NCBI GenBank assembly: GCA_016208485.1
Contig: JACQXY010000019.1
Location: 4,505 to 68,504 of the forward strand
From: Acidobacteriota bacterium
GTDB taxonomy: Bacteria; Actinomycetota; AC-67
DNA length: 64,000 nucleotides
Reading direction: 5' to 3'
Shown here: positions 49,238-63,864 of the stretch, in pieces
Position numbering within the stretch: the stretch's first letter is position 1
How the letters are laid out: each line of letters starts with the position of its first letter
The notes under the pieces: model-generated
What the model was told of the DNA's origin: nothing
Seen by the model: the letters and a program-made list of their open reading frames with translations, nothing else
Databases searched by the model: none
Made by a program: the position numbers and the translations under genes

Positions 49238-49354
49238 CCACTCAGGATACCCGGCGCCCGGCGGGCCGGGAAGGGGATGCCCGGCCCGCCGGGTCGCCGC
49301 CCCGGTCGCGCGCGCCGGGCGCCTCCGGCGCCCCGCCCTGCGCAGCGCCCCGCC

Positions 49355-50026
49355 CTACGCGGCGGCCCGCACCATCATCAGGATCGCGGCGTAGTGACAG
49401 GCGCTCGCGCCGATCACCATGGAGTGCCAGATCTCGTGGTAGCCGAACACGCGCGGGTTGGGATCCGGGCGCCTGCGCAGCAGCACGACCGCGCCGGCGG
49501 TGTAGAGGACGCCTCCGGCGACGATGAGGGCGCCCGGGACCGCCCTCAGGCCGCGCACCATCTGGGGGAGCGCGATGACGGCGATCCATCCGAGCGCGAT
49601 GTAGAGGGTTCCCCCGAGCGCACGGAGCCCGTCGATCTTGACGAGCTTCAGCACGATGCCGGCGATCGCGCCGGCCCACACGCCGGCGAGGACCGCGATC
49701 CTCCACGCGCCGTGCAGCGCGAGCATGCTGAACGGAGTGTAGGTTCCGGCGATGAGCAGGAAGATCATCGAGTGATCGAGCCTGCGCATCCGCCGGAGCG
49801 CGCGCGCCGACCAGTCCAGTCGGTGGTAGGCCGCGCTCGACCCGAAGAGCCCCGCGAGGCTGAGCGCGTAGACCGCGACCGCGAAGCGCACGGTGCCGCG
49901 GCGCGCGGCGAGCACGAGCGCGGCCCCGGCCGGCACGGCGAGGAAGAAGGCGATCTCGTGGAAGCGCCCGCGGAGTCGCGGCTTGGGGAGGGCGGGGGCG
50001 CGGATCGGCCCGGACATGGATGCCAT
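49355..50026 (-). CDS. hemolysin III / PAQR-family membrane protein
   Basis: About 223 residues with seven predicted TM helices. The PAQR metal site is intact: SSAAYHRLDWS near the N-terminus, LDHSMIFLLIAGTYTPF, and the C-terminal YHEIWHSMVIGASACHY with His ligands. Members are channel- or hydrolase-like, possibly acting in lipid homeostasis. The hemolysin name is historical. ATG 50026 is taken as start; ATG 50017 is equally possible since no strong ribosome site is seen. Confidence 0.87.
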   Translation of the reverse strand: MASMSGPIRAPALPKPRLRGRFHEIAFFLAVPAGAALVLAARRGTVRFAVAVYALSLAGLFGSSAAYHRLDWSARALRRMRRLDHSMIFLLIAGTYTPFSMLALHGAWRIAVLAGVWAGAIAGIVLKLVKIDGLRALGGTLYIALGWIAVIALPQMVRGLRAVPGALIVAGGVLYTAGAVVLLRRRPDPNPRVFGYHEIWHSMVIGASACHYAAILMMVRAAA

Positions 50027-50070
50027 GATACCGGCCGGCCGAGGCGAGGAGGAGGGCAGTCCCGAGCCGT

Positions 50071-50940
50071 TCATTTCGTTCCGTCTTCGCGGAACCCCGC
50101 CAAGAACTCCCGAATGGTGGCGACGGCTTGCCGGCGGAGCCGTGCCCGCTCTTCCTCATCCCCTGGTGTCGCAAGGAACGCGGCGTACGCGCTCGGGCCA
50201 TCCTGTGCGGCGTCGCGAAACCGTTCCTCGACGAGGATGAACGCTTCCTCCGCCTGAGGGTGCCCCGACACCGGGCTTGAGCGGGCCGCTCTCCCCGCGG
50301 CGCGCGGGCCGCCCGGATGGTTCAGGAGCGTGAAGGCGAGGTCGTACGCGTCCTTGTTCTCGTGCCGATCCTGGAAGGCGAAGATCTTCAGCACGCAGTA
50401 GGGCAGGACGTTGGCGATCCTGACGCTCGCTCGGGAACGACCGCCGTGATCGAGGCGCTCTGCCTCGATCTCGCGCTCGATGAAGTCGTCGGGGACCAGG
50501 TGCGCGCCTCGGACGTTGAACGCGCCGAGGCCCGATCCGGTGAACTCACCCTTGGGCCGGAAGATGCGACCCGGAGCTACTTGCTCGGTCTCGCACAAGA
50601 ACTCCACAAAGACGGTCACACCCTCGACTTCGCGCGCCCAGCGGAAGCTCGGTTCCCCCTGATCAAAGCCGGCCTTCTCCAGGTTATTCTGCAAGGTACG
50701 GTACGTCTCGGGCGTCTCGTCACCGAGAGCTACCCCAATCACCAGATCGACGTCGGTCGTGCCCACGTGGGCGCGAGCGCCCTCGGGTAGCTGCCCGACC
50801 AGGTACCGCGGTGCGAGACCACCCGCAAGGTAGATGCGCTCGCGCCACGGGCCGAGGTCGCCGAGGAGCGTGACCAGGACGCGCTCGCAGCGGGCGGTCG
50901 TCTCCTCGTCGTAGTCGGAGTGATGCGCGCGGCGGCTCAG
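50071..50940 (-). CDS. AbiEii-like nucleotidyltransferase toxin (pair 1)
   Basis: A ~289-residue protein with DNA-polymerase-beta-type nucleotidyltransferase motifs: IYLAGGLAPRYLVG (GG motif) and HVGTTDVDLVIGV (DxD), and the AbiEii helix NKDAYDLAFTLLNH. AbiEii/MenT-type toxins add nucleotides to tRNA. No ATG/GTG/TTG lies in frame near the upstream gene's stop. CTG 50940 overlaps that stop (CTGA) and has GGAGGTGATC upstream, so a CTG start with coupling is proposed. Its paralogue at 58888-59748 uses GTGA in the same position. Confidence 0.78.
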   Translation of the reverse strand: MSRRAHHSDYDEETTARCERVLVTLLGDLGPWRERIYLAGGLAPRYLVGQLPEGARAHVGTTDVDLVIGVALGDETPETYRTLQNNLEKAGFDQGEPSFRWAREVEGVTVFVEFLCETEQVAPGRIFRPKGEFTGSGLGAFNVRGAHLVPDDFIEREIEAERLDHGGRSRASVRIANVLPYCVLKIFAFQDRHENKDAYDLAFTLLNHPGGPRAAGRAARSSPVSGHPQAEEAFILVEERFRDAAQDGPSAYAAFLATPGDEEERARLRRQAVATIREFLAGFREDGTK

Positions 50941-51980
50941 AACCCGATCACCTCCCGGCGGAAATGCTCCGCCTGCTCGCGACCGCGCCGCGGATCTCCT
51001 CGCAGATCGGCGTAGAGCCGGAAGCGGTTCACGATCCATAGGCGCTTCGCCCTCTCGCGAAAGGCGAGTGGCGTATCGTCCTTGGCCTGGAGGAACACGA
51101 CATTGTGCCCGTCGGGCACGCGATCGACTCTTGCTCCGTCATAGAGCTCCTCGGGGCCGGCCGCCGCAGCCACCCACGCCTCGACGACGGGGACCGCGGT
51201 CACGAATGGCGCAAGGACGCTCGCTGCCGCGGCACCAGTGAGGGCGTGATCGATCCCGCTGCGTTCCAGATTCGCGCCGAGCGCATCGATCAGTTGCCTC
51301 GGCGTCTGGGCGAGCAGATACCCAAGCGTACGCGTTGGCCGGTCATCGTTCTCTTCAGCCCACAGGTCGAGCAAGGCTGCCGGATTGGCGACGCGGCGCA
51401 CGCGGCCCGGTCCCATCCCTTCGGTTGCCACGACACCCTCCTTCTCGAGGCGCGCGAGCACGCGGTGCGCCAGACCCGCCGACACGCCCGCCTCCCCGGC
51501 GAGATCGTTGACCTTCCAGGCTCGCTCACGCCGCAGGATCAGCGCTTGGGCCGCCACGCCCGCCTTGCCGCGGAGCCGCGTGGGCGGATGGTCGGCCCGG
51601 GCGCGCCGGCGACCTTCCCGGTGGAGCATGAGGCCCGGCAGTTCGACGTGGGCGTTGCCCAATCCGTCGATGACCCCGATCCCGTGCCCGCTCAGAATCT
51701 CCCGAGCCTCGGTCGTGGTCTGGTCCGCGATTAGCACCAGCCGCGTTCTCGGCCGGGTGGCCGCGTAGGCGACGAGCTGCCAGGCGGTGGCTGCGTTCGC
51801 GCGCCGCTTGAATTCCACTGCGATGCGTGCCCGCCTCCCGGCGAAGTGGAGGATGGCGTCGGGTCGGCGATCGCCGGCCCGCTGCTGAGGGACCACGGTC
51901 ACGCCCGGTATCTGGCGTAGGATGCGCAGAGGCTCAGCCCCGAGGGGAGCCTGTATCTTCATCACCTCGGCCTTCTTCAC
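50937..51980 (-). CDS. AbiEi-like antitoxin with N-terminal PD-(D/E)xK-like motif (pair 1)
   Basis: A 347-residue protein. Residues ~15-120 contain R39-P40-D41-A-I-L, then VEFKRR (Glu56, Lys58) and Gln68, the spacing of a PD-(D/E)xK nuclease fold. A winged helix follows (~138-200: WKVNDLAGEAGVSAGLAHRV). The C-terminal ~140 residues (LTGAAAASVLAPFVTAVPVV, NRFRLYADLRGDPRRGREQA) resemble the AbiEi C-terminal domain. It overlaps the nucleotidyltransferase by 4 bp. GTG 51980 or ATG 51962 is the start. A TTCACA/TGTGAA operator covers the GTG. Confidence 0.75.
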   Translation of the reverse strand: MKKAEVMKIQAPLGAEPLRILRQIPGVTVVPQQRAGDRRPDAILHFAGRRARIAVEFKRRANAATAWQLVAYAATRPRTRLVLIADQTTTEAREILSGHGIGVIDGLGNAHVELPGLMLHREGRRRARADHPPTRLRGKAGVAAQALILRRERAWKVNDLAGEAGVSAGLAHRVLARLEKEGVVATEGMGPGRVRRVANPAALLDLWAEENDDRPTRTLGYLLAQTPRQLIDALGANLERSGIDHALTGAAAASVLAPFVTAVPVVEAWVAAAAGPEELYDGARVDRVPDGHNVVFLQAKDDTPLAFRERAKRLWIVNRFRLYADLRGDPRRGREQAEHFRREVIGF

Positions 51981-52010
51981 AGTGTTTGTGAATATAGCAG
52001 ATTCTGTGAA
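51976..52010 (-). promoter_or_regulatory. operator and -10 region of AbiE-like pair 1
   Basis: TTCACA-GTGTT-TGTGAA (51976-51992) is a perfect 6-bp inverted repeat overlapping the GTG start. A third half-site TGTGAA lies at 52005-52010. On the minus strand TATATT (51996-51991) sits between them as a likely -10. Autoregulation by the winged-helix AbiEi-like protein is inferred. Confidence 0.5.
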
Positions 52011-52101
52011 TTAGCGCCGGGTGCCGTCCAAGGGTCCCGCCGGCCGCGCGCGCTGCGGACCCTCCGCGCTAGGCTTTCGGCGTCGACCGAGGAGGAAAGC
52101 C

Positions 52102-53166
52102 ATGGGACGCAAGGTGTTCGTGGTCGGAGTCGGGATGACCAAGTTCGAGAAGCCGGGCGGGCGCGAGTGGGACTACCCCGACATGGCGCTCGAGTCCTCG
52201 ACGAAGGCGCTGTCGGACGCGAGGATCTCCTACCGGGAGATCGAGCAGGCGTGCGTGGGATACGTCTACGGCGAGTCCACCTCGGGGCAGCGCTCGGTGT
52301 ATCAGCTCGGCCTCACCGGCATTCCCGTCTACAACGTGAACAACAACTGCTCGACCGGGTCCACCGCCCTGTTCATGGCCAAGCAGCTCGTCGAGGGCGG
52401 CGTGGCCGAGTGCGTGCTCGCGCTCGGCTTCGAGAAGATGGAGAAGGGCTCGCTCGGCGCGAAATACACCGACCGCACTCAGCCCATGGATCGCCATTTC
52501 ATGCTGATGGGCGACCTCCGGGGCTTCGAGACCTCCCCTCCGGCGCCGCAGCTCTTCGGGAACGCCGGGCGCGAGCACATGGAGCGCTACGGCTCCACGC
52601 CCGAGCAGTTCGCCAGGATCGGCGTGAAGAACCACCGCCACTCGGTCAACAACCCCTACGCCGCCCGCGGCCTCGAGGCGCAGGCGGTCGAGATCATCGC
52701 GCAGACGATGGTGACCGACACGCCGGCCACCTTCGAGGACCGGAGCGTCATATCGCTCATCGGGGCCGACATGACCCGCCTCGCGGCGCGCAAGGCCTAC
52801 GAGCAGTCCGGCCTGGGGCCCGAGGACGTGGACGTGATCGAGCTGCACGACTGCTTTTCCTCGAACGAGCTGATCACCTACGAGGCGCTCGGGCTCTGCC
52901 CGGAGGGGCAGGGCGGAAAGCTGATCGACGAGGGGGCCGTCACCTACGGCGGCACCTGGGTCGTCAACCCGTCGGGCGGGCTGATCTCCAAGGGACACCC
53001 GCTCGGGGCGACAGGGCTCGCGCAGTGCTCGGAGCTGAGCTGGCAGATCCGCGGGCTCGCGGAGCGCCGGCAGGTCCCCGGCGCGAAGGTCGGCCTGCAA
53101 CAGAACATCGGCCTCGGCGGCGCGGTGGTCGTCACGATGTACCGCAAGGCGGATCTCGCGGCGTAG
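52102..53166 (+). CDS. SCP-2/SCPx-type thiolase (acetyl-CoA acyltransferase-like)
   Basis: A 354-residue thiolase-fold enzyme; ATG 52102 has GAGGAGGAAAG upstream. Catalytic elements are visible: the nucleophile Cys in [38 protein letters not shown] and [17 protein letters not shown]. It belongs to the SCPx/lipid-transfer thiolase group. These enzymes act on sterol side chains or branched acyl-CoAs, or serve as inactive partners. No sterol cluster is nearby. Confidence 0.87.
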
Positions 53167-53196
53167 CGCGCGCGGCGGAGACGTCCGGCCGGTCTC

Positions 53197-53301
53197 CTAC
53201 CCGCAGGAGCCGCCGTCCAGCGCGCGCGTCTCGAAGCTCCAGGTGAAGTCGCGCCGGAGCCCCGCGCCGGCGTGGTCCTTCAGCGCCCCGGTCCCCCCCA
53301 T
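53197..53301 (-). pseudogene. short remnant of an Ig-like (Big_5-type) domain end
   Basis: A 34-codon minus-strand frame contains GALKDHAGAGLRRDFTWSFE followed by TRALDGGSCG and a stop. The pattern KDxAGxxLxxDxTWSFxT is the usual end of bacterial Ig-like domain 5. It is much too short for a gene and probably the tail of a lost surface protein. Confidence 0.4.
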
Positions 53302-53321
53302 CCTCTAGCATTGCCGGCGAG

Positions 53322-54266
53322 ATGAGCCCGACCCGGACGCCGGTTCGCAGGAGGTGGCGCCGCGCGCTGCTCGTCCTCGTCGTGGTCCAGGCACTCGTCG
53401 GCGGCCTCGCGCTCGGCTACCGGTGGTTCACGACCTCGACGGAGGTCTCGACGGAGGATGCCCTCGCGCGCTTCAGGAGCGAGACCGCCGGGGGCGGCTC
53501 GTCGTCCCCGGCACTCGCCTCCCCGACGGGTTCGGCCGGCGCGGAGGCCACGCCGACCGGCGCCGCTCCGACGGATGGGACTCCGACCGGCGCGACTCCG
53601 ACCGGCACCCTCGTCTCGCCGGGGCCCCAGCCCACCGTGGACGCGTCGCCGTCGAACCCCGCGATGGAGTCCCGTCCGCCGGACGAGGGCGTCTACCGGT
53701 TCGCCACGCAGGGTACCGAGCAGGTGGACCGTCTGCCCCCGCGCGACCTGCCGCCCAAGTCGCAGCGCGTCGTCACCGGCACGGGCGACGGGCGCACGTG
53801 GACCAACCACCACCTCTTCTCCGACCAGCACGAGGAGTGGTTCGACCTCACGATTGCCCCCGACGGCGTCTTCTGCCCCTCCTTCCGCGCGCGGATCACG
53901 TTCGGGCCCTTCACCGAGGACGAGACTCTCCGCTTCGATCCCCCGCTCCGGTTCTCGACGTTCCCGTTCCGGCTCGGCGAGCAGTGGCAGGGGACCTTCT
54001 CCGGGGAGACTTCGGGGAGCTACACCGGCAAGACCTTCGAGCACACGAGCATGACCATCGGCGGCGAGACGCTCGAGGCCTGGGCGGTCCAGATCGACAT
54101 GACCTTCGAGGGCAAGGTGAGCGGCGAGGCCAGGTTTCGGCTGTGGCTGTCCCCGAAGTACCGCCTCAGCTTGAAGGAGCAGTACCGGGAGGTTGAGCGC
54201 ACGAGCGGGCACACCTACCGGAACGACATCACGATCACGCTGCTCTCAACCAAGCCCCAGCAGTGA
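53322..54266 (+). CDS. membrane-anchored extracytoplasmic protein of unknown function
   Basis: A 314-residue protein with an Arg-rich N-terminus and one TM helix (LLVLVVVQALVGGLALGYRW). A low-complexity Thr/Pro/Gly/Ala linker (~60-110, repeats like GATPTG) precedes a beta-rich C-terminal domain (WFDLTIAPDGVFCPSFRARI, FRLGEQWQGTFSGETSGSYT). The stop overlaps the galT start by 4 bp, so the two are translationally coupled although no functional link is obvious. Confidence 0.7.
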   Translation: MSPTRTPVRRRWRRALLVLVVVQALVGGLALGYRWFTTSTEVSTEDALARFRSETAGGGSSSPALASPTGSAGAEATPTGAAPTDGTPTGATPTGTLVSPGPQPTVDASPSNPAMESRPPDEGVYRFATQGTEQVDRLPPRDLPPKSQRVVTGTGDGRTWTNHHLFSDQHEEWFDLTIAPDGVFCPSFRARITFGPFTEDETLRFDPPLRFSTFPFRLGEQWQGTFSGETSGSYTGKTFEHTSMTIGGETLEAWAVQIDMTFEGKVSGEARFRLWLSPKYRLSLKEQYREVERTSGHTYRNDITITLLSTKPQQ

Positions 54267-55282
54267 GCGAGCTCCGTCAGGACCCGCTGGCCGGCGACTG
54301 GGTGATCGTCGCACCCGGCCGCGTCCGGCGCCCGAACGGCTCAACTGCTGCGGGCCGAGCCGAGCGGCCGGGGGACTTGCCGGCGCCGGAGTGCCCGTTC
54401 TGCCGGGGGCGGGAGTCTCGGACGCCCCCCGAGGTCTGGCGGCTCGGGGAGCCCGGCGGGGACTGGCGGGTCCGGGTCGTCCCGAACATGTTCCCGGCGC
54501 TTCACCCCGAGCGGACCCCGCGCTCGCTCCGCGACGGCGGGCTCGTCGCGCTCGACGGGGCCGGTTGCCACGAAGTCGTCGTCGAGCACCCCGACCACGA
54601 CTGGGACCTGCAGACCGGCGCCGAGCGTGAGGTGCGCGACGTGCTCGAGGCGTATCGCGCTCGCTACCGGGCCGCGCGGGAGGCCGGCGCGGCGGCGATC
54701 ATCGTGTTTCGGAACCACGGGGCCGCGTCGGGGAACTCCCTCGATCACCCGCACTCGCAGATCGTCGGGATGCCCGTCGTGCCAGCGCGCATCGCGCGGT
54801 TGGCAGAGGCGGCGCGCCGGCACCACGAGGAGTTCGGGACGTCGCTTCTCGCCGACGTGCTCGCGCGCGAGACGGCCGACGGCCGCCGGGTGGTCGCGCG
54901 CGCGGGAGGTCTCGTCGCCTTCCAACCCTTCGCGTCCTCCTCGCCCTTCGAGACCTGGATCGCCCCGGAGGATCGCGCGCCCCGCGGTGCGGGAGCCGGC
55001 TCCTTCGGCGATGCGCCGGACGGCGCGCTCGACGAGCTGGCGGTGATCCTTCGCGCGGTGCTCCGCGCGCTCGGGCGCGCGCTGGACGATCCCCCCTACA
55101 ACCTGCTCCTGAGCGGCGCTCCCCGTCTGGAGGAGGGCGGACGTCTCCCGTGGCACGTGCGCATCGTGCCGCGCCTTTCGCCCCTCGCGGGGTTCGAGCT
55201 CGCGACCGGCACCACGATCAATCCGTCGCTTCCCGAGGAGACCGCCGTCATCCTCCGCGAGGCCGTCGCGCACGACTCCTGA
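54263..55282 (+). CDS. galT: galactose-1-phosphate uridylyltransferase
   Basis: A 339-residue HIT-superfamily enzyme of the Leloir pathway. The zinc-type motif CPFCRGRE, NMFPALHP, and the active-site LDHPHSQIVGMP (HPH with the nucleophilic His) are clear. LPWHVRIVPRLSPLAGFELA near the end fits the family. GTG 54263 overlaps the preceding stop. It transfers UMP from UDP-glucose to galactose-1-phosphate. It could use galactose released by the GH27 enzyme ~8 kb upstream, though no galK or galE is present here. Confidence 0.9.
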   Translation: MSELRQDPLAGDWVIVAPGRVRRPNGSTAAGRAERPGDLPAPECPFCRGRESRTPPEVWRLGEPGGDWRVRVVPNMFPALHPERTPRSLRDGGLVALDGAGCHEVVVEHPDHDWDLQTGAEREVRDVLEAYRARYRAAREAGAAAIIVFRNHGAASGNSLDHPHSQIVGMPVVPARIARLAEAARRHHEEFGTSLLADVLARETADGRRVVARAGGLVAFQPFASSSPFETWIAPEDRAPRGAGAGSFGDAPDGALDELAVILRAVLRALGRALDDPPYNLLLSGAPRLEEGGRLPWHVRIVPRLSPLAGFELATGTTINPSLPEETAVILREAVAHDS

Positions 55283-55309
55283 CCGAGCCGCTCCCCGGGC
55301 CCGCCGGGG

Positions 55310-55810
55310 TCAGCCGCGGGGAGGCCCCGATCCCTCGGGTGCTCGCACGAGCGCGTGGATCTCGAGCGTGAGCCGGTGGACCTCGCGTGTGAGGTCCGTG
55401 TTCGCTTGCAGGAGTCCCTGCATCTTCTCGCCCTCGTCGTAGTGGTGGGCGGCGAGCGCCTCGTCGCGCGCGGCGGCGCGGTTCTGGCTCATCATGATGA
55501 TCGGCGCCTGAAGGCCGGCGAGTCCGGAGAGCATCAGGTTGAGCGCGATGTAGGGGAAGGGATCGAACTGCCGGTGGTGGAGCGCCTTGCCGAGGAAGAC
55601 CGTGTTCAGCACCATCCAGCTCGCGATGAGCCCGAGGAAGAGGAAGATGAAGGGCCACGAGCCCCCGAAGCTCGCGATCTCGTCGGCGACCCTCTCCCCG
55701 AGCGTGCGCTCGTCGTGGGCGGCCTTGATGACCGGGTGGCCGTGATGGTGCCGGTCCCACGGCCTTCCCTTGCGGCGATCCTTCGTCCCGGTGGCGCTGA
55801 TCGCCCCCAT
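55310..55810 (-). CDS. DUF1003 family membrane protein
   Basis: A 166-residue protein with two TM helices: FIFLFLGLIASWMVLNTVFL, and the DUF1003 signature FDPFPYIALNLMLSGLAGLQ followed by APIIMMSQNR. A C-terminal coiled coil starts near DEGEKMQGLLQANTDLTREV. The N-terminus is His-rich (DRHHHGHPV). Function unknown; homologues are often linked to cell-envelope or Mg/CorA-like contexts. ATG 55810 has GAGGAGGG. The 268-bp gap to 56079 shows no gene. Confidence 0.88.
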   Translation of the reverse strand: MGAISATGTKDRRKGRPWDRHHHGHPVIKAAHDERTLGERVADEIASFGGSWPFIFLFLGLIASWMVLNTVFLGKALHHRQFDPFPYIALNLMLSGLAGLQAPIIMMSQNRAAARDEALAAHHYDEGEKMQGLLQANTDLTREVHRLTLEIHALVRAPEGSGPPRG

Positions 55811-56078
55811 GACGCCCTCCTCGTCGGCCTGGGTGGACAGCCTAGTCCGCCGCCGCGCGCGCCGCCCGTCCTTGCCCGGCCCGGTCGGGGAGGCGGCCGG
55901 GCCGGAGGCCGCACGCGCAGTTGATGGCGCGCGGCGGCGCTGAGCTGTTCTCGCTCCGGGCCCTCGGATGGAGAAACCGATGCGACTACCTGTGACAGGG
56001 GCCGTTCAGCACTTGTGCGCGATCGGGCGACTCAGGTTCAACAACGTCGAGGCCTCTGAACTGCTGCGGCACCTGCTG

Positions 56079-58868
56079 TCAGGAATCATGGTCTTCCTGC
56101 GGCGGAGGGGCGTCCGTGAAATGGGCCCGCGTGCTCGGATCAAGCTTCTGGAGGAAGGCGTCGGAGTACTTGCCATCCCGGGTGTCCGCGTCCGACTTCC
56201 AGTAGCGGAACTTGACCTGGTAGTCGCTGTGGTTGCGATCGGCCAACTCGTCCTTCCGAGAGTCGTCGTGATAGTAGAGGCAGAGCACGTGCTCGAGGTT
56301 TCGGCCGAGGAGTTCGGCGTTGACCTTCGCGCGGTGGAAGCCATGGTGAAGGATCTCGTTCCGAGCGATCTCGATGAGCCGACCCTTGTCTTCGGAGAAG
56401 AACAGGTACTTGCCCATGAGTTCATACGGTGGTCGCCCGCGCGCGGATAGGTGGAGCCAGTATCCGTCGAACTCGATCTGGCAATCCTCGCCGGCCATGT
56501 CAGCGCCGTCGGGGGTGGTGACATCGGGCACGGGTTGCTCCTCGAAACCCAGGGATCGATAGATACGGAGCCGCTTGATGAACATCGCCTTGAGGACGGG
56601 CACGCCTGAATCGACGTAGTCGTAGACGACTGCGTTGGGCTTGTTCACGTGGGTTCGCAGGATCCGGCCCGTGTACTGGACCAACTTGCCCCTAAACGAG
56701 GCCGGGAACGCGAGGAACAGCGAGTCGAGCTGAGGGCAGTCGAACCCCTCCCCGATATACTGTCCGGTCGAGACGATGACGAGGTCCTCGTCGGGCCCGA
56801 CTTCGACGATCCGTTTCAGGAGGCTCTCGCGCCGCTTCTTGCCCATGCCTCCCTCCAGCACGATCGGCTCGACTCCTTCGGAGCGCAGGAGGTCGGCGAG
56901 CACCCCAACGTGCTCCTTCCATTCGCTGAGAACCAGGCAGCGGCGCCGGTCTGCCAGGGCGCGGAGCACATCTCGCTCGATCAACCGGTTTCGTTGCTCG
57001 CTATCGACAACGCCACGGAAGATGTCCTGGATCGGCAGCTCTTCGGATCGTTCCAGCGCCAGGCGGGTGTGCTGTGCGTGCAGCACAAGTTGCATGCCGG
57101 CGCCTTGATTGTTCCCCCCATCCACCTCGTGTCGGATCGGGCCGCAGTGCATCGTGATGAGCTCCTCGAGCCCGTCTCGTCGGTAGGGGGTGGCGGTGAG
57201 GCCGAGGATGAAGCGAAGGGGCGCGCGCTTCACGCACGCTTCGAACGAAACCGCCGGAACGTGGTGGCACTCATCGATCACCAGGAACCCGTATCGACTG
57301 AAGAACCCCTCGAGGTCCTCCACGGGGCGAAGGCTCTGGATCATGGCCACGTCGATCACGCCGGTGCGCTTGTCCTTCCCCCGACCCAACACACCGATCC
57401 CCTCCCCAGGGAGGCCGAGACCCTCCGCGAGCCGGGCGTGCCATTGGTCCAGCAGCGGCTCGCGATGCACAAGGACGAGGGTCGGTAGCTTGCGGGCTGC
57501 GACCATCGCGCACGCCATCACCGTCTTGCCTGTCCCCGGAGGTGCGACGAGAATCCCCTGATCGTGAGCGAGCACTTCCGCGACGGCCTTCTTCTGGGTG
57601 GGATCCAGCTTTCCCGTGAACTCCAGCGGTATCGCCGGCGGCACCGAACGCCGATCCGCGAGCGAGAGGCCGCTGCCGAACCTTCCCGCGACGGCGCGGA
57701 GTTCCTCCAGGATCCCACGGGGGAGATGCACATGCGTGAGGTCTTCGTCGTAGCAGCGGATAAAGCGAGGTGTCTGAAACGTGGAGAAGCGAAGCTTCTG
57801 CCGCTTGTAGAACTCCGGGTTGTGCAGTGTTGCCAGGTGCTTGATCGCCGAAACGAGTGCCGGCGGAAGACCCGACCGCTCGACGCTGACCATCGCACCC
57901 ACGACACAGTCGATCGCGGCCGGCGCGGGAGGTTGACCTTGGACGGGACCGTGCGCAACCGGGGCTGACCTCGGCCCCACGTCGACCGGGCGGACCGCGT
58001 TGGCCGCGTCGTGGACCTCGGCCGGCGTCAGTCGTTGCACCTGGCTCAAGAACGCCCACTGGTCGGGGAACGGCTCCAACGAGGAGGGGTCGAGGAACTC
58101 GGTGCAGCCGGCCGCCCGGCTCTGGCCTTGTAGCGGAAGCGCGATCAGATTGCCGAAGCTCCCTTTGGGGACGAAGTCCTGGCTCGGGAACAGCCGATCG
58201 AAGCTTTCGAGATCCACCTCCGCGCGTTCGATCATCGTCTCCCCGAGCAGGCCTGCCCCCAATCGGCGGGCAACCGATGCCTTGACGGGCTCGGTGAAGA
58301 CGACCCAGATGTGCGCGCCTTCTCCGGAGCGGGAGCGCTCGAGGTAGGCGGGGACGCTGTGGCGCCGGCACACGGCAAGGAAGGCCAGCGCGTCCAGCGC
58401 CCAGCCCTTGCCGTCGAAGTCGCATGCCAGGAAGCAGCTCGTGTCCTCGTCCAGCAGCGGGTAGATCCCGATCGTCTGGCGTCCGCAGAGATGCTCCTCG
58501 ATCACGTTGTCGGAGAGGGCGAGATAGTCCTTGGGGGACTTCTTCGACCCATGCCAGCCGCCGGCGACGGCAGGGGCGTATCCCGTCTTGCCGGTGCGGG
58601 CGTTCGTCCACCGGATCGCGTGGACGTCCTCGCGTGCCCGGAAGAGCGCGCGCATGAGGCGAACCTTCTCCTGCAGAGGGGACGAATCATCGAGCGCTGG
58701 CAACGGGGCAGCGAGCGAGAACAGGGCATAGGCGGACGCCGGCTCGGCGACCTGAGAGGGATCGGGCATGCCGAGCAGCGCGCGGAGCCGCTCGTTCTCC
58801 GCGCGCAGGCGGTCGGCCTCTTTGCGTGCGGCCTGGAGTTCCCCGCGCGAAGCGTTGTCCCTGGCCAT
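56079..58868 (-). CDS. AEP-type primase fused to SF2 helicase (TOTE-like conflict protein)
   Basis: A 929-residue protein; ATG 58868 follows AGGAGG. Residues ~8-33 form a leucine-zipper-like coiled coil. An archaeo-eukaryotic primase-like domain (~65-265) has the metal-binding D150-F-D152 in CFLACDFDGKGW, SGEGAHIW (181-188) with His186, and FDRLFPSQDFVPKGSFGNLI. The SF2 helicase (~420-770) has Walker A APPGTGKT (442-449), DECH (532-535), LTATPYRRD and QYTGRILR (731-738). A ~140-residue C-terminal domain of unknown type follows (EFDGYWLHLSARGRPPYELM). It is the last gene of an operon with an AbiEi/AbiEii-like pair. Role in defence is inferred from family and context. Confidence 0.82.
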   Translation of the reverse strand: MARDNASRGELQAARKEADRLRAENERLRALLGMPDPSQVAEPASAYALFSLAAPLPALDDSSPLQEKVRLMRALFRAREDVHAIRWTNARTGKTGYAPAVAGGWHGSKKSPKDYLALSDNVIEEHLCGRQTIGIYPLLDEDTSCFLACDFDGKGWALDALAFLAVCRRHSVPAYLERSRSGEGAHIWVVFTEPVKASVARRLGAGLLGETMIERAEVDLESFDRLFPSQDFVPKGSFGNLIALPLQGQSRAAGCTEFLDPSSLEPFPDQWAFLSQVQRLTPAEVHDAANAVRPVDVGPRSAPVAHGPVQGQPPAPAAIDCVVGAMVSVERSGLPPALVSAIKHLATLHNPEFYKRQKLRFSTFQTPRFIRCYDEDLTHVHLPRGILEELRAVAGRFGSGLSLADRRSVPPAIPLEFTGKLDPTQKKAVAEVLAHDQGILVAPPGTGKTVMACAMVAARKLPTLVLVHREPLLDQWHARLAEGLGLPGEGIGVLGRGKDKRTGVIDVAMIQSLRPVEDLEGFFSRYGFLVIDECHHVPAVSFEACVKRAPLRFILGLTATPYRRDGLEELITMHCGPIRHEVDGGNNQGAGMQLVLHAQHTRLALERSEELPIQDIFRGVVDSEQRNRLIERDVLRALADRRRCLVLSEWKEHVGVLADLLRSEGVEPIVLEGGMGKKRRESLLKRIVEVGPDEDLVIVSTGQYIGEGFDCPQLDSLFLAFPASFRGKLVQYTGRILRTHVNKPNAVVYDYVDSGVPVLKAMFIKRLRIYRSLGFEEQPVPDVTTPDGADMAGEDCQIEFDGYWLHLSARGRPPYELMGKYLFFSEDKGRLIEIARNEILHHGFHRAKVNAELLGRNLEHVLCLYYHDDSRKDELADRNHSDYQVKFRYWKSDADTRDGKYSDAFLQKLDPSTRAHFTDAPPPQEDHDS

Positions 58869-58887
58869 CTGCCTCCTGAGATCTGGT

Positions 58888-59748
58888 TCAGCGGTCTTGT
58901 TCTACCGCATCGAGGAACTCGAGAACGAGCCCGCATGCGTACCGGCGATGCTGTTCGAGCTGAACCGGCGCACCGCCAATCAACCGCGCGTACCCCACTG
59001 GGCCGGGCGATGTCGGTGATTCGAAGAGCGTGTGCAGCACGTGAAAGGACTCGACGACGAAGGGGTCGTTGCGCACCGCCGAGGACCTGGCGATCTCGGC
59101 CAGCGCGGCAGCGCCGTGGGGTTCATCCGTTGCGTGCGGCCAGGCGTCGCACAGCCACACGATGTCGTAGGCATGCTTGGGCTTGTCCACATCGGCGAGC
59201 GCCTGTGCCTTCAGCGCGAGCAGGGTCGTCGGACCCACGACCCTCAAGCTGATGGGCCCGCGGTCACCGAGATCGGCGATCTCCTCGTTCAATTCGACCG
59301 TCACGAAGTCGCGAGCCGTTAGCTCGACACCTCGCACTTGAAGCGCGGCGAGTTCGCTTCCGCCGTCGACCTCGACCTTGCGACGGATGCGATTCTGGAT
59401 CTCCTCATCCTGCGGGCAGAGGGTCTCCAGGACGACGTCCACACCGCCTTCGAGGGTGAACCACCGGAAGGAAGGGTGCTCAGGCTGCCGCTGCCGGAAG
59501 CCACACTCCTTCAAGGCCCTGACCAACGAAACGTAGGCGTCCTCCTCGGCTGCGAACACCCCGACCGCGAGGTCGATGTCGGACGTCCCCACGTGAGCCG
59601 GAACGCCGCGAGCAGGTTCGGGGGCCAGGAAGGGCGGTGCCAAACCGCCGACGAGCACGACCCGGTCCCCCCAAGCACGCCCGAGCTTCCACCGCAGGCG
59701 GTAGAGGGAGCGGCGGACGGCGAGCGTGAGCTCGGTGCTGTATGTCAC
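58888..59748 (-). CDS. AbiEii-like nucleotidyltransferase toxin (pair 2)
   Basis: A 286-residue nucleotidyltransferase from GTG 59748, overlapping the upstream stop (GTGA). Motifs: VVLVGGLAPPFLAPEP, HVGTSDIDLAVGVFAA (DxD), a central VRGVELTARDFVTVELN, and KHAYDIVWLCDAWPH, the AbiEii-type helix. It matches pair 1 in motif order and spacing but is divergent elsewhere. The helicase gene starts 19 bp downstream, so toxin and helicase are in one transcript. Probable activity: nucleotide transfer to tRNA. Confidence 0.78.
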   Translation of the reverse strand: MTYSTELTLAVRRSLYRLRWKLGRAWGDRVVLVGGLAPPFLAPEPARGVPAHVGTSDIDLAVGVFAAEEDAYVSLVRALKECGFRQRQPEHPSFRWFTLEGGVDVVLETLCPQDEEIQNRIRRKVEVDGGSELAALQVRGVELTARDFVTVELNEEIADLGDRGPISLRVVGPTTLLALKAQALADVDKPKHAYDIVWLCDAWPHATDEPHGAAALAEIARSSAVRNDPFVVESFHVLHTLFESPTSPGPVGYARLIGGAPVQLEQHRRYACGLVLEFLDAVEQDR

Positions 59749-60761
59749 GCGATGGACTCCAGCAGCGCATCCGCCAGCTCCTCCAGTCGCGGACCTCCCC
59801 GCAGGGCCGTCTCCACGAACGCGCGCGCGGGGGAGACCAGGGGGAGACCGTTCTGCACAGCGTGATGAGCGAACCACAGCGGCGCGCGGCCGCCGGCCAA
59901 TCGCCGGATCGTCAGGTTCGCGGCGTCTTCATCGACGGGCGCTCCGAGCGCGGTCGCGTCGTCCCACGCTCTGTCATCAACCCAGAGTTCCACGCCGGGG
60001 CTCCGCGACAGCGTGGGTCGCCACATCTGAGCCGCGGCCGGTCCCCCCACAGCCCAGCGGCCACGCAGGCGCGCCCGCCTGAGGGCGGACAGCGCCGCCT
60101 CAGGGTCGCGGGCCGTCACGTAGACCGACAGGGAACGAGAGACCGGCGTCACGTGCTCCCGCGCCCACAGGCGCAGAAGATCGCCTTTCCGCACGTCGAA
60201 GTACCTCGTGAATCGTGGGCCTCGGCTTCGATCCACGCTGAGGATCCCCTCGTCCTCCAACCGAGAGAGGACCTTCTGAATCTGCGCGATCGATGGGCCG
60301 TCTCTCAGCGCTCCCGAGCAGACCTCCTTCAGCTTCGTGAGCGGGGGAAGCTCCTCCAACGAATGGGCGACGAGGGCCTCTGCCACCAACTCGGAGAGCC
60401 CCTGAAGCTTGGGTCCTCGGCGTCGGGGCTGGACGAACTCGATGGGTCGCTCAACATCGACCATCAGGCCGGGAAGGCGAAGACTCAGCAAGCCAGTAGA
60501 CGTCGCCAACGCCTTGGTGCGTCGGTGCGCGTCGCGCAGCGCGCCGGTCAGCCGCGGACCCGCATTGATGAACAGGTTGAAGGAGCCGGGGGACGCCTGG
60601 CGTCTCACGTCTGGGCCCCGGCCGCGGATGATCTTGAGGGGCAGGCTCGTTGCCTTGCCCGCCTTGGGGTGCACCGTGATCTTCCCGTCCCCGAGCCGGA
60701 GACTGAGGTCCGGGGACGAGAGCCGGCGCACTATTTCTCGTACTCGCTCACTTTCTCGCAT
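59745..60761 (-). CDS. AbiEi-like antitoxin/regulator (pair 2)
   Basis: A 338-residue protein. The N-terminal ~110 residues parallel the nuclease-like domain of pair 1 but lack the E-x-K element. A winged helix (~115-190: IAQIQKVLSRLEDEGILSVD) and an AbiEi-like C-terminal part (GRWAVGGPAAAQMWRPTLSR, LPLVSPARAFVETALRGGPR) follow. It is the first gene of the three-gene operon. An inverted repeat overlaps its ATG, and TTGCTA/GATATT hexamers place the transcription start at or next to the ATG, implying a leaderless, self-repressed operon. Confidence 0.72.
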   Translation of the reverse strand: MRESERVREIVRRLSSPDLSLRLGDGKITVHPKAGKATSLPLKIIRGRGPDVRRQASPGSFNLFINAGPRLTGALRDAHRRTKALATSTGLLSLRLPGLMVDVERPIEFVQPRRRGPKLQGLSELVAEALVAHSLEELPPLTKLKEVCSGALRDGPSIAQIQKVLSRLEDEGILSVDRSRGPRFTRYFDVRKGDLLRLWAREHVTPVSRSLSVYVTARDPEAALSALRRARLRGRWAVGGPAAAQMWRPTLSRSPGVELWVDDRAWDDATALGAPVDEDAANLTIRRLAGGRAPLWFAHHAVQNGLPLVSPARAFVETALRGGPRLEELADALLESIA

Positions 60762-60771
60762 GAAGCGAGAA
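60753..60771 (-). promoter_or_regulatory. operator overlapping the start of the AbiE/primase-helicase operon
   Basis: TTCTCGC-ATGAA-GCGAGAA is a perfect 7-bp inverted repeat containing the start codon region (ATG 60761-60759). On the minus strand GATATT ends 8 nt before the ATG, with TTGCTA 16 bp upstream of it. No Shine-Dalgarno is present. Confidence 0.55.
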
Positions 60772-60782
60772 TATCAGCCCTC

Positions 60783-61075
60783 AGGAGAAGATAGCAAGGG
60801 CTGATGACCCAGTGGAGGCGGTTCTCGATCTCCCGCCCCGCACGAGGTGAAGGAGTCGAGCAGGGTCCGCCTGCTCGGGGCCCAGGCTCGTGATCACGTA
60901 GGCGGTCTCGGATCGCTCCTGCCCGGTCTTCTGGACGCGGACGCGGGCGGTGGATCCGGGCGACCTGGGCGACGTGGGGGAAGTGCCCGGGGGCGTCGGG
61001 GTCGGCAAGGTAGGCTCGTAGCTTCGTCGTCACCTGGATGCTCCGCCGCTCGATGCGCCCGTGTCCCTTGTCCAC
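60783..61075 (-). pseudogene. ISAs1-type transposase C-terminal remnant
   Basis: Minus-strand pieces in different frames spell DKGHGRIERRSIQVTTKLRA, HFPHVAQVARI, SETAYVITSLGPEQADPARL and EIENRLHWV. This is the order and wording of the C-terminal half of ISAs1-family transposases (ITSLxPExA..LLxLVRGHWxIENRLHWV). Two or more frameshifts are needed, and the N-terminal half is missing. Confidence 0.65.
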
Positions 61076-61084
61076 GGTTGCGAC

Positions 61085-61275
61085 CGCGGGGCCGAAGTGG
61101 CTGTTTCGTGTCCTCGGGATGCCATGGCGGGCGGCGCTCGTAGATCGTGATGGCTCGACCGCGCGTCGCGACGACCCACACCAACTGGTTACGGACGTGC
61201 GCGGGGAATCTTCTGATCGCAGAACCGCTGGACCTTCGCGACCGCAAGCTCGGGCAGCACGCCGGATTTCGCCAC
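61085..61275 (-). pseudogene. DUF3024-like gene remnant
   Basis: The minus strand gives VAKVQRFCDQKIP and, after a 1-nt shift, RFPAHVRNQLVWVVATRGRA followed by ITIYERRPPWHPED. KVxRFC...VPxHxRxxxxxxxxxRGxxxTIxERRPPWxPE is the DUF3024 pattern. The frame is broken and the 3' end runs straight into the ISAs1 remnant. Confidence 0.55.
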
Positions 61276-61277
61276 GA

Positions 61278-61706
61278 TCACGAACCCCCTGAGCTCAGGT
61301 ACCTCTGCCATCGAGCGATCGCTTCCTCTTTCGTCATGCGCGCGAGCTCGGACTGGGGGATCCCGACCCTGGTGAGCAGGTTCCGAGCGAGGTCGAACAG
61401 GATCGACTCCCTCGGGGCGGGCTCGGGCGCGACGCCGGGTCGCTCGGGCTTCGTGCCGTGGTCGACTGCCGCCCAGAACTGTTCGGCGGTCACACTCAGT
61501 TGAGTCCGAAGGATGTGCGCGAACAGGTCTGGATCACCGATCGCCTTGCGTCCGTGGGAGACCTTGGTCATCAGAATGGAACCGTCGGGGAGGACCTTCC
61601 GGTAGCGTGTGTGGTCGCCTGCCTTCTTGCCGCGAGCGGTCTTGCGGACCTCCCACCCGTCCACCTCGCAGAACCGGTGGAGGTCTCGAGTGGTGGGGAG
61701 TCTCAA
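61278..61706 (-). CDS. HicA-like toxin paired with a Phd-type antitoxin
   Basis: A 142-residue protein from TTG 61706, which overlaps the antitoxin stop (TTGA). The N-terminal ~85 residues have the short dsRBD-like HicA layout: DLHRFCEVDGWEVRKTARGK, DHTRYRKVLPDGSILMTKVS, and HILRTQLSVTAEQFWAAV. The ~60-residue C-terminal extension is not in HicA proper. HicA toxins cleave mRNA. Here the predicted catalytic His would be in GDHTRY. Assignment as toxin depends on gene order and size. Confidence 0.65.
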   Translation of the reverse strand: MRLPTTRDLHRFCEVDGWEVRKTARGKKAGDHTRYRKVLPDGSILMTKVSHGRKAIGDPDLFAHILRTQLSVTAEQFWAAVDHGTKPERPGVAPEPAPRESILFDLARNLLTRVGIPQSELARMTKEEAIARWQRYLSSGGS

Positions 61707-62146
61707 CTCGCGGAGGCTGTAGCCGAGGCGTTCTCAGCGTCGGCAACGAGCATGTCGATCACAGCCTGTTCGCTGCCGGCGAGTTCGATGCGGCGCACGA
61801 AGCCCCAGGCGTCCTTGTGGTTGGGGGCGAACCGGAGTTCCCGCTCCCACTCCTCGGCGTACTCGATGAGCTCGGCCGCGAGGGCGCGGGTCGCGGACTC
61901 GAAGTCATCGGCTTGCGCGTGGACGGGAAGGGGGCCGGGCCACATCGCGACGGTGTCCTTGCCGACTCTCACCTGGACGTCGAAGGGGAAGTGGAGCGCG
62001 AGGAGGCGTTCCAGCTCCTCCGCGTCCACGACCGCGACAGGCTTTGAGCCGCGTCGCTGAACGACCGCCGCCGATCCCTGCTCGACCCGGTCGTAGAGCG
62101 CGCTGAACTCCTTGCGCGCGACGCTGAAGGGAAAGTGCGTGTCCAT
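61703..62146 (-). CDS. Phd/YefM-like antitoxin
   Basis: A 147-residue protein; ATG 62146 has GAGGAGG upstream. Residues ~5-45 carry a Phd-like fold (FSVARKEFSALYDRVEQGSA, SKPVAVVDAEELERLL). The C-terminal ~90 residues (ESATRALAAELIEYAEEWER, AWGFVRRIELAGSEQAVIDM) are longer than in classical Phd. It overlaps the HicA-like gene by 4 bp. A strong palindrome lies ~40 bp upstream of the start. Confidence 0.7.
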   Translation of the reverse strand: MDTHFPFSVARKEFSALYDRVEQGSAAVVQRRGSKPVAVVDAEELERLLALHFPFDVQVRVGKDTVAMWPGPLPVHAQADDFESATRALAAELIEYAEEWERELRFAPNHKDAWGFVRRIELAGSEQAVIDMLVADAENASATASAS

Positions 62147-62183
62147 GGGGCCTCCTCGATCCGCATGATACCTGGTCTGTGCA

Positions 62184-62204
62184 AGTTGTGCGAGTAGCAC
62201 AACT
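62184..62204 (-). promoter_or_regulatory. palindromic operator of the Phd/HicA-like module
   Basis: AGTTGTGC-GAGTA-GCACAACT: perfect 8-bp arms, 5-nt spacer, 38 bp upstream of the antitoxin ATG. TATCAT on the minus strand (about 62170-62165) may be the -10. Confidence 0.5.
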
Positions 62205-62400
62205 GCTGACACGTGACGGGCCCGGGTGGGTATCCTCCCTCGTGCCCATCCTGCCGCTTCGGCGGCAGGGCGCGAGGCCGCCCTCGGGCGGCCTCTGCCT
62301 TGGGGGCTGGCTCCGCCCCTCGCCGACGCAGGGAGGGCAGTTCACCCAGGTCGGCGCAAGGTCGGCAGATCGAGGAGGGGGGACAGTGGGAGGATCGGCC

Positions 62401-62613
62401 GTGCATCTGGTTTGCGAATGCTGCGGGTACCCCCGGGAGTTCCGCGACGCGGACGAGGCCTTCGAAGCCGGTTGGGACTGCCGGCCCTACTTCTCCGGCC
62501 CCATCATCTGTGAACTCTGCCCGAGCACGCTCGTCACTCTCCGGATGACGGATCGGCACGAGCGAGCGCACAGCGAGTGGATGGCGTCCGGGCGGCCGAC
62601 GCTCGACGCGTAG
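62401..62613 (+). CDS. small zinc-ribbon-like protein
   Basis: A 70-residue protein from GTG 62401 with GGAGG 8 nt upstream. Two Cys pairs (CECCGYPREF, then ICELCPSTL) ~33 residues apart suggest one zinc site. The rest is acidic and aromatic (DADEAFEAGWDCRPYFSG). No family recognised. Located between the Phd/HicA-like module and the IS630-type element. Confidence 0.55.
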   Translation: MHLVCECCGYPREFRDADEAFEAGWDCRPYFSGPIICELCPSTLVTLRMTDRHERAHSEWMASGRPTLDA

Positions 62614-62681
62614 GCCATCGGGGTCAGGCAGCACGCGCGACCCGCGCACCTGCATGACACTCTGCATGACAACTACGGGGG

Positions 62682-62767
62682 ACTGAGGGGGACGGGCGCG
62701 ACTCAACGGACCTCAACAGAACCTCGCGACGTGCACCTTCGCGCAACGAGTCCCCATACGACGCATG
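62682..62767 (+). repeat. 86-bp direct repeat, copy 1 (left region of the IS630-type element)
   Basis: The sequence from 62682 (ACTGAGGGGGACGGGC) to 62767 is identical to 63912-63997. Copy 1 lies just upstream of the transposase coding region. The repeat distance is 1230 bp, about one element length. Confidence 0.8.
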
Positions 62768-63864
62768 CTCGCGGAAGTATACGTCGGCGTATCGAGATGT
62801 GATCCGCGCGCGGACCGTGCTCATGGCCGCCAAGGGGATGGACAACGACGAGATCGCCCTGCGTCTGAACACCAGCCGCGACGTGGTCTCCATGTGGCGG
62901 AAACGCTTCTTCGAGGAGGGCCTTGCGGGCCTGGAAGAGCGCCCCCGCCGCGGCCGACCCGCGGTTTTCCCCCCCAGGGGTCGTGGTTGAGGTCAAGGCG
63001 ATCGCCTGCGAGCTTCCCGCCACCCTTGAGGTTCCGCTGTCCCGTCTGTTCGTCCCCGACATCCGGGCCGAGGTGATCCGCCGCGGGATCGTCGCCAGGA
63101 TCTCCGACTCCACGATCTGGCGCTGGCTCTGCGAAGACGCCATCCGGCCCTGGACCTTCCGGTCCTGGATCTTCCCCCGCGACCCCGACTTCGAGCCGAA
63201 GGCGGCCCGCGTGCTCGACCTGTACGCCCGCGAGTTCGAGGGAACCCCGCTTCAGGACGACGAGTACGTGGTGTCGGCGGACGAGAAGACCTCGATCCAG
63301 GCCCGCTGCCGCTGCCATCCGAGCCTTCCGGCCGCGGCGTCCCGCGCCATGCGCGTTGAGCACGAGTACCGCCGCGGCGGGGCCCTTCAGTACCTGGCCA
63401 CCTGGGACTGCGGCCGGGCCAAGATCTTCGGACGCTGCGAGCCCAAGACCGGGAACGTCCCCTTCGACCGGCTCGTGGCCCAGGTCATGTGCACCGAGCC
63501 CTACGCCTCCGCCCGGCGCGTGTTCTGGGTGGTGGACAACGGCTCCTCTCACCGGGGGCAGGCCTCCATCGACCGGCTGGAGGGCCGCTACACCCGACGA
63601 GGGCACCGGCGCCTGCGGCTCGTCCACACGCCCATCCACTCCTCCTGGCTCAACCAGGTCGAGATCTACTTCTCCATCATCGATCGGAAGGTGCTAACCC
63701 CCAGCGACTTTCTCGATCTGGGCGAGGTGGAGGCGCGCCTGCTCGCCTTCGAGCGGCGCTACGAGGCCGCCGCCAAGCCGTTCGAGTGGAAGTTCACCCG
63801 CACGGACCTCCGCAACCTCATGAAACGACTCGAAGAGAAGCAGGTCCTTCCCCCAGCGGCATGA
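62760..63864 (+). mobile_element. IS630-family transposase, frameshifted in a C7 tract
   Basis: Frame 1 (to 62990) carries the helix-turn-helix half: YTSAYRDVIRARTVLMAAKG, DEIALRLNTSRDVVSMWRKR, LEERPRRGRPAVFPP. From about 62975 a second frame (to 63864) carries the rest: VVVEVKAIACELPATL and the DDE catalytic part, with VVSADEKTSIQ, VVDNGSSHRG and HTPIHSSWLNQVEIYFSIID. The frames join at TTTTCCCCCCC (about 62963-62973), where one extra C breaks the gene. The junction could be a slippage mutation, sequencing error or a recoding site. No clear start codon is in frame at the N-terminus. Confidence 0.78.

Follow-up and report, generated by a model that had tools for sequence, protein, structure and literature searches.

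An AbiE-like toxin-antitoxin pair coupled to a TOTE-type primase-helicase with a Bles03-like extension

Why should the two genes of an abortive-infection-type toxin-antitoxin (TA) pair be joined to a large primase-helicase, and which of the three proteins does the work? This question is raised by a locus in a 64,000-nucleotide stretch (hereafter, the window) of contig JACQXY010000019.1 of a bacterium named as Acidobacteriota and probably belonging to the Actinomycetota, where GTDB places it. Translation and family scans place three genes on its minus strand: an AbiEi-like regulator, an AbiEii-like nucleotidyltransferase, and a 929-residue fusion of an archaeo-eukaryotic primase (AEP) with a superfamily 2 (SF2) helicase, which we call PH (Table 1). 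The first two genes overlap by 4 bp, with GTGA forming the end of one and the start of the other, and a 19-bp gap carrying a Shine-Dalgarno-like AGGAGG ahead of the PH start codon separates the second from the third. The coordinates, gene order, overlap and gap reported by a first-pass annotation of the same sequence were all borne out. That annotation had proposed a composite defence system in which the nucleotidyltransferase is the effector. The account that we tentatively prefer is that a mobile, defence-type PH joined an AbiE-type operon as its final gene, with PH as the working part and AbiE as the switch.

The pairing recurs well beyond this window. PH relatives number at least 535 across GTDB, and the best 80, from many phyla, were examined; AbiEii genes at PH loci (L numbers) were called with locally built profiles. 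At 14 of 102 PH loci in many phyla, an AbiEii gene with the orientation of PH ends upstream of it at a distance of at most 200 bp, a count that includes a fragment at a contig edge (L083), broken or partial copies (L065, L037) and a weak match (L104). From the density of AbiEii in the rest of these flanks, about 0.1 such cases would be expected. As a control, HsdR loci from the same 50 genomes had AbiE within 1.5 kb in 0 of 30 cases, against 14 of 96 for PH (Fisher p 0.022; here L083 is left out, and L055, where an NTP_transf_8 nucleotidyltransferase follows an AbiEi-like gene near PH, is counted). Among upstream PH neighbours (n = 75), Pfam itself detects AbiEii in 9 and AbiEi_4 in 8, with textbook AbiEi_4-AbiEii pairs at L036 and L078. 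The order AbiEi-AbiEii-PH with operon-like spacing is also seen at L036, L078, L086 and L080, the last of these from another lineage and with the identical 4-bp overlap, and at five more loci (L031, L059, L070, L097, L101) an AbiE pair lies just downstream of PH on the same strand. On a quickly built tree of 101 PHs, in which gains and losses are not separable and most cases come from one clade, the upstream-AbiEii trait needs 9 changes, 8 of them forced by starred branches. The three-gene order thus recurs in several phyla, far above chance, and we conclude that AbiE and PH are truly associated and that their coupling arose repeatedly in different bacteria. At L082, a sister locus of L080, an AbiEi gene stands directly before PH with no AbiEii; this is possibly a case of toxin loss with the regulator kept.

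Which of the proteins is likely to act? In Streptococcus agalactiae AbiEii, for which motifs I-IV were defined, toxicity is lost in the mutants K173A and R180A of motif III and D192A of motif IV (PMC3985639, Dy et al. 2014). When aligned with its relatives, the window AbiEii retains the GG and DxD (here DID) motifs noted in the first-pass annotation, as well as the motif-III lysine, but the motif-III arginine is replaced by valine, and the motif-IV pattern +DxxD reads KHAYD, with histidine for the first aspartate; D192 may correspond to either aspartate of this pentad. The GG-to-DID spacing is 21 and the motif-II arginine is absent. These departures in motifs I and II are shared by L031 and by a second AbiE-like pair in the window (pair B), and L080 also lacks the motif-II arginine; pair B, L031 and L080 all keep both the motif-III arginine and the motif-IV aspartate. 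The motifs are intact in most PH-linked copies, such as L036, L072, L080 and L095. Because the residues lost from the window protein belong to motifs in which alanine substitution removes toxicity from the S. agalactiae protein, the assignment of the nucleotidyltransferase as effector is doubtful here, and the toxin is probably weakened, being weak or non-toxic.

In contrast, the catalytic residues of PH are intact. The primase DFD (residues 150-152) and SGEGAHIW (at 181), and the helicase Walker A (at 442) and DECH (at 532), are present, as the first-pass annotation had read them, and fall in columns that are invariant or nearly so in an alignment of 11 PHs; identity to relatives reaches 57%. 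With the nucleotidyltransferase probably weak or non-toxic, PH is the likely working part at this locus. Its primase matches the AEP-TOTE family (PF22548, 260 bits), and its helicase, of the XPB/RadD-like SF2 type, matches ResIII (74 bits) and Helicase_C (25.6 bits). TOTE stands for TPR, OB, TBP and Effector (PMC12458937). The TOTE label holds for the primase domain and its fusion to an SF2 helicase, but not for a TOTE system in the strict sense: no TPR, OB or TBP companion gene was found among the window proteins scanned (47417 to 63864), and PH is instead coupled to a TA pair and carries a different C-terminal domain, described below. The AEP domain is also homologous to that of the CRISPR-associated PrimPols (CAPP/MpCAPP; PDB 7nqd, 7nqf; E 1e-27). 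Unlike these, PH has a fused helicase and scores 67.5 against a cut-off of 200 for NCBIfam PrimPol_Msp, and no cas family was found among the neighbours scanned.

The AbiE pair could supply the control of PH. No Pfam family scores above its cut-off in the AbiEi-like protein. A profile made from the other AbiEi-like proteins, with the window protein excluded, matches its residues 89-336 (E 3.9e-18; 98.5% in hhalign); the winged helix-turn-helix region taken alone gives a weak match (GMT-wHTH, E 0.023), and we found no close relatives in IMG/VR. The pair resembles the AbiE type IV TA systems (relatives of MenAT), which are mobile and abundant, in having two overlapping genes, a winged-helix regulator followed by a DUF1814-like nucleotidyltransferase. 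It has the overlapping-pair anatomy and an AbiEi with winged helix and C-terminal domain, and it differs in its third gene, in the divergent AbiEi N-terminus, in an AbiEii that lacks the motif-III arginine and one motif-IV aspartate, and in the GG-to-DxD spacing (9-15 in AbiE). The S. agalactiae AbiEi represses its own operon (PMC3985639). Since PH is the third gene of what would be a self-repressed operon of this kind, it would come under AbiEi control, with AbiEi repressing one promoter that drives all three genes. Disturbance of this repression by the host or an invader would then lead to production of PH, which could act on foreign nucleic acid by unwinding, copying or priming. The AbiE module would be a stress-responsive switch and, where its toxin is intact, could arrest growth or keep the mobile gene in the cell; it may thus serve PH as switch, back-up or addiction partner. 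We infer a defence function for the operon.

The C-terminal ~140 residues of PH, left unassigned in the first-pass annotation, can now be placed in the Bles03 superfamily. A Pfam hmmscan of this extension alone was negative; hhalign of residues 787-929 against a Bles03 alignment gave 96.0% (E 4.2e-9), and a second comparison gave 95.7% (E 1e-8). The extension and Bles03 (PF08939; human C11orf68, PDB 1ZTP) have three motifs in common, GKxLxF, VLCLY and K(S/T)D..T..G.Y; they differ in that the window domain is fused to a helicase and, by itself, lies below Pfam detection. On these sequence comparisons, the C-terminus is a divergent Bles03-like domain, assigned at superfamily level. The Bles03 fold is eIF4E-like. 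A single-sequence fold of the domain was rejected at a predicted local distance difference test score (pLDDT) of 40.7, and a three-sequence fold (pLDDT 49.5), for which Foldseek returned generic ferredoxin-like folds at E >0.02 and none below 0.001, was not used.

No other sampled PH carries such an extension. Elsewhere the same position holds nuclease-like domains that we assigned from sequence as PLD-like (L037, L038, L041) or DUF559-like (L105, L114, L121), or matched to NOV_C (L066), so that a slot filled by a nuclease in other PHs would here hold a Bles03-like domain, probably one that binds nucleic acid. GC content at third codon positions falls from 0.83 in the PH core to 0.65 in the extension, in line with recent acquisition of the domain. 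Two IMG/VR contigs and plasmids of Paenibacillus (51% over 87 aa, E 2e-14, with an in-frame stop in that copy), Halobaculum and Haloterrigena carry relatives of the extension; plasmid relatives matched at E 2e-14 and 2e-6. A stand-alone Bles03 gene (92.7 bits) in G399 lies upstream of PH in the same orientation, with 238 bp between its end and PH; a search with its product detected a relative in only one of 297 genomes of the phylum. A Pfam Bles03 scan of 246 genomes gave no match and is uninformative, as the control was silent too. Together, the one fused and the one adjacent case suggest a functional link between Bles03 and PH. On archaeal and Streptomyces plasmids and one viral contig (L163, L164, L166, L170), Bles03-like genes repeatedly have a gene for a 3'-5' exonuclease or an RNase H-like protein as neighbour, and at L170 an RlaP-type nucleotidyltransferase gene lies nearby as well.

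Several points weigh against the account that we prefer. PH has its own ribosome-binding site. The candidate AbiEi operator, an inverted repeat upstream of the AbiEi start, is weak evidence not beyond chance, because equally long repeats occur in ~6% of random 120-bp tiles. AbiE is common in the host genome (a 2.66-Mb assembly in 86 contigs, with one PH), given its ten AbiEii-like matches, which looks like a high load for a genome of this size. AbiE is absent beside roughly 80% of the PHs sampled and also beside the four nearest relatives of the window PH (L032, L033, L049, L092; L033 lies at a contig edge), so the particular trio of the window has been seen once. Finally, the role of PH may lie in replicating or repairing mobile elements, not in defence. 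The composite system of the first-pass annotation survives as a recurring association, but not as one in which AbiE is a fixed component; judged by the refuting condition named in that annotation, the many PHs without the pair weaken an obligate composite and do not abolish the association.

At loci without AbiE, other toxin types are found beside PH, among them PIN (L046, L111, L032), ParE (L105, L113), HigB-type and Fic (L064, L089, L118) genes, as well as, in individual cases, Schlafen-type genes (L079) and a DUF4258/DUF2283 pair (L108). In L031, PH is followed by a pair closely related to pair B. Because other TA genes occupy the place of AbiE and most PHs have no AbiE, the TA partner looks exchangeable, and PH itself looks self-sufficient. 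A further recurrent pair lies downstream of PH in L060, L077 and L108: its first gene encodes a small CcbP-like protein, and its second a ~380-aa protein that, in the copies scanned, matches no Pfam or NCBIfam family.

This exchangeability bears on the first alternative, which we consider rather unlikely: that AbiE does no more than provide addiction or stabilisation and is co-inherited with a mobile PH, with no mechanistic coupling. AbiE can confer phage resistance or stabilise mobile elements, including plasmids and integrative and conjugative elements (PMC3985639, PMC11062541), different TA families fill the slot, and integrases and transposases often adjoin PH. However, pure passengers would not be expected so often within 200 bp, upstream and on the same strand, a placement seen at none of the HsdR loci.

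Mobility also underlies a second, improbable alternative, that PH helps mobile elements to replicate, prime or repair their DNA while the TA pair retains the element. Priming of replication is a common role of mobile-element AEPs (PMC5862659). Close PHs occur on 90 plasmid records, 38 of them conjugative, often beside integrases or transposases, and recombinases and island genes lie near both plasmid and E. coli copies; the two E. coli loci that we read belong to a mobile island that has AlpA, YfjI and Gp2-like genes but lacks AbiE. Against this, PH is present in 683 of 5426 complete E. coli genomes, nearly all copies being chromosomal (RefSeq names the protein 'TOTE conflict system archaeo-eukaryotic primase domain-containing protein'), and the C-terminal nuclease fusions and the Uma2- or Schlafen-type neighbours fit defence. 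Within the phylum of the window, PH occurs in 24 of 397 genomes. No PH was found in INPHARED phages at E 1e-30, and none of the ~10 near full-length PHs in IMG/VR has AbiE.

We give still less credence to the model of the first-pass annotation, in which PH acts as sensor or processor of foreign nucleic acid and the infected cell is arrested by the nucleotidyltransferase as effector. The recurrent pairing and the intact AbiEii motifs of most PH-linked copies agree with it, but the window AbiEii lacks residues of motifs III and IV, most PHs have no AbiE, and unrelated toxin types fill its place. A chance gathering of defence-island neighbours is rejected on the positional statistics.

The surroundings of the trio contain further modules. 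Pair B lies 4 kb from PH, with housekeeping genes in between; its AbiEii-like gene is a close relative of the gene beside PH in L031 (E 3e-158), and its regulator is related to the one directly downstream of PH there (E 2e-150). The AbiEi-like proteins of pair B, L080 (2-1132) and L031 (1689-2723) show a D...ExK pattern in their N-terminal parts, that of L080 with a weak Mrr_cat match (E 0.024), and a nuclease-like domain is possibly fused to the antitoxin in all three. On the other side, the PHD_like antitoxin gene and its overlapping partner are a probable TA pair, which, so counted, makes three TA-like modules inside 12 kb. The decayed stretch before it includes an apparent ISAs1-type transposase remnant, judged by eye.

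Table 1. Features of the AbiE-PH locus and its surroundings (window coordinates)
Feature	Position	Strand	Details
AbiEi-like regulator/antitoxin, 338 aa	59745..60761	-	winged-helix region ~130-180, AbiEi C-terminal domain, N-terminal ~85 aa divergent
AbiEii-like nucleotidyltransferase, 286 aa	58888..59748	-	Pfam PF08843 34.8 bits, cut-off 22.5
PH, whole gene, 929 aa	56079-58868	-	
PH core, residues 1-786	56511..58868	-	coiled-coil-like N-terminus, AEP primase 67-286, SF2 helicase ~420-753
PH C-terminal extension, residues 787-929, Bles03-like	56079..56510	-	hhalign to Bles03 alignment
Candidate AbiEi operator	60773..60805	.	perfect 9-bp inverted repeat ATCAGCCCT-N15-AGGGCTGAT, 12-44 bp upstream of AbiEi start
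Decayed stretch between trio and PHD_like module	60762-61277	-	DUF3024 gene fragment, 20.1 bits, below cut-off
PHD_like antitoxin (PF12910) overlapping 142-aa gene of no assigned family	61278-62212	-	
IS630-like transposase beside island	62923-63864	+	NCBIfam 93.6 bits, cut-off 100
Pair B AbiEii-like nucleotidyltransferase	50071..51039	-	Pfam 15.8 bits, below cut-off; motif III R and motif IV D intact
Pair B AbiEi-like regulator	50937..51980	-	Pfam AbiEi_2 21.8 bits, cut-off 21

Our findings can be extended to a broader proposal, which we regard as speculative and rather doubtful: PHs may be a modular class of immune systems. Their core, as the downstream gene, would be wired repeatedly to exchangeable TA modules (AbiE, PIN, ParE, Fic), which would guard it or set its timing, and would carry an exchangeable C-terminal domain (PLD, PD-(D/E)XK, Bles03-like); a phage that disabled the core or the repressor would set off the toxin. 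AbiE and TOTE-type primase-helicases are known kinds; what is newly seen is their recurrent coupling and the Bles03-like fusion. A literature search that covered few subscription papers found no paper on PH function and no description of the coupling to AbiE, and to our knowledge the role of human C11orf68 is not known. The Bles03-like fusion, together with the free-standing Bles03 gene beside PH, offers a functional lead for the family that includes this human protein, and the repeated coupling to TA modules provides a testable lead on the function of PH, which has homologues in laboratory strains and is a common yet unstudied gene.

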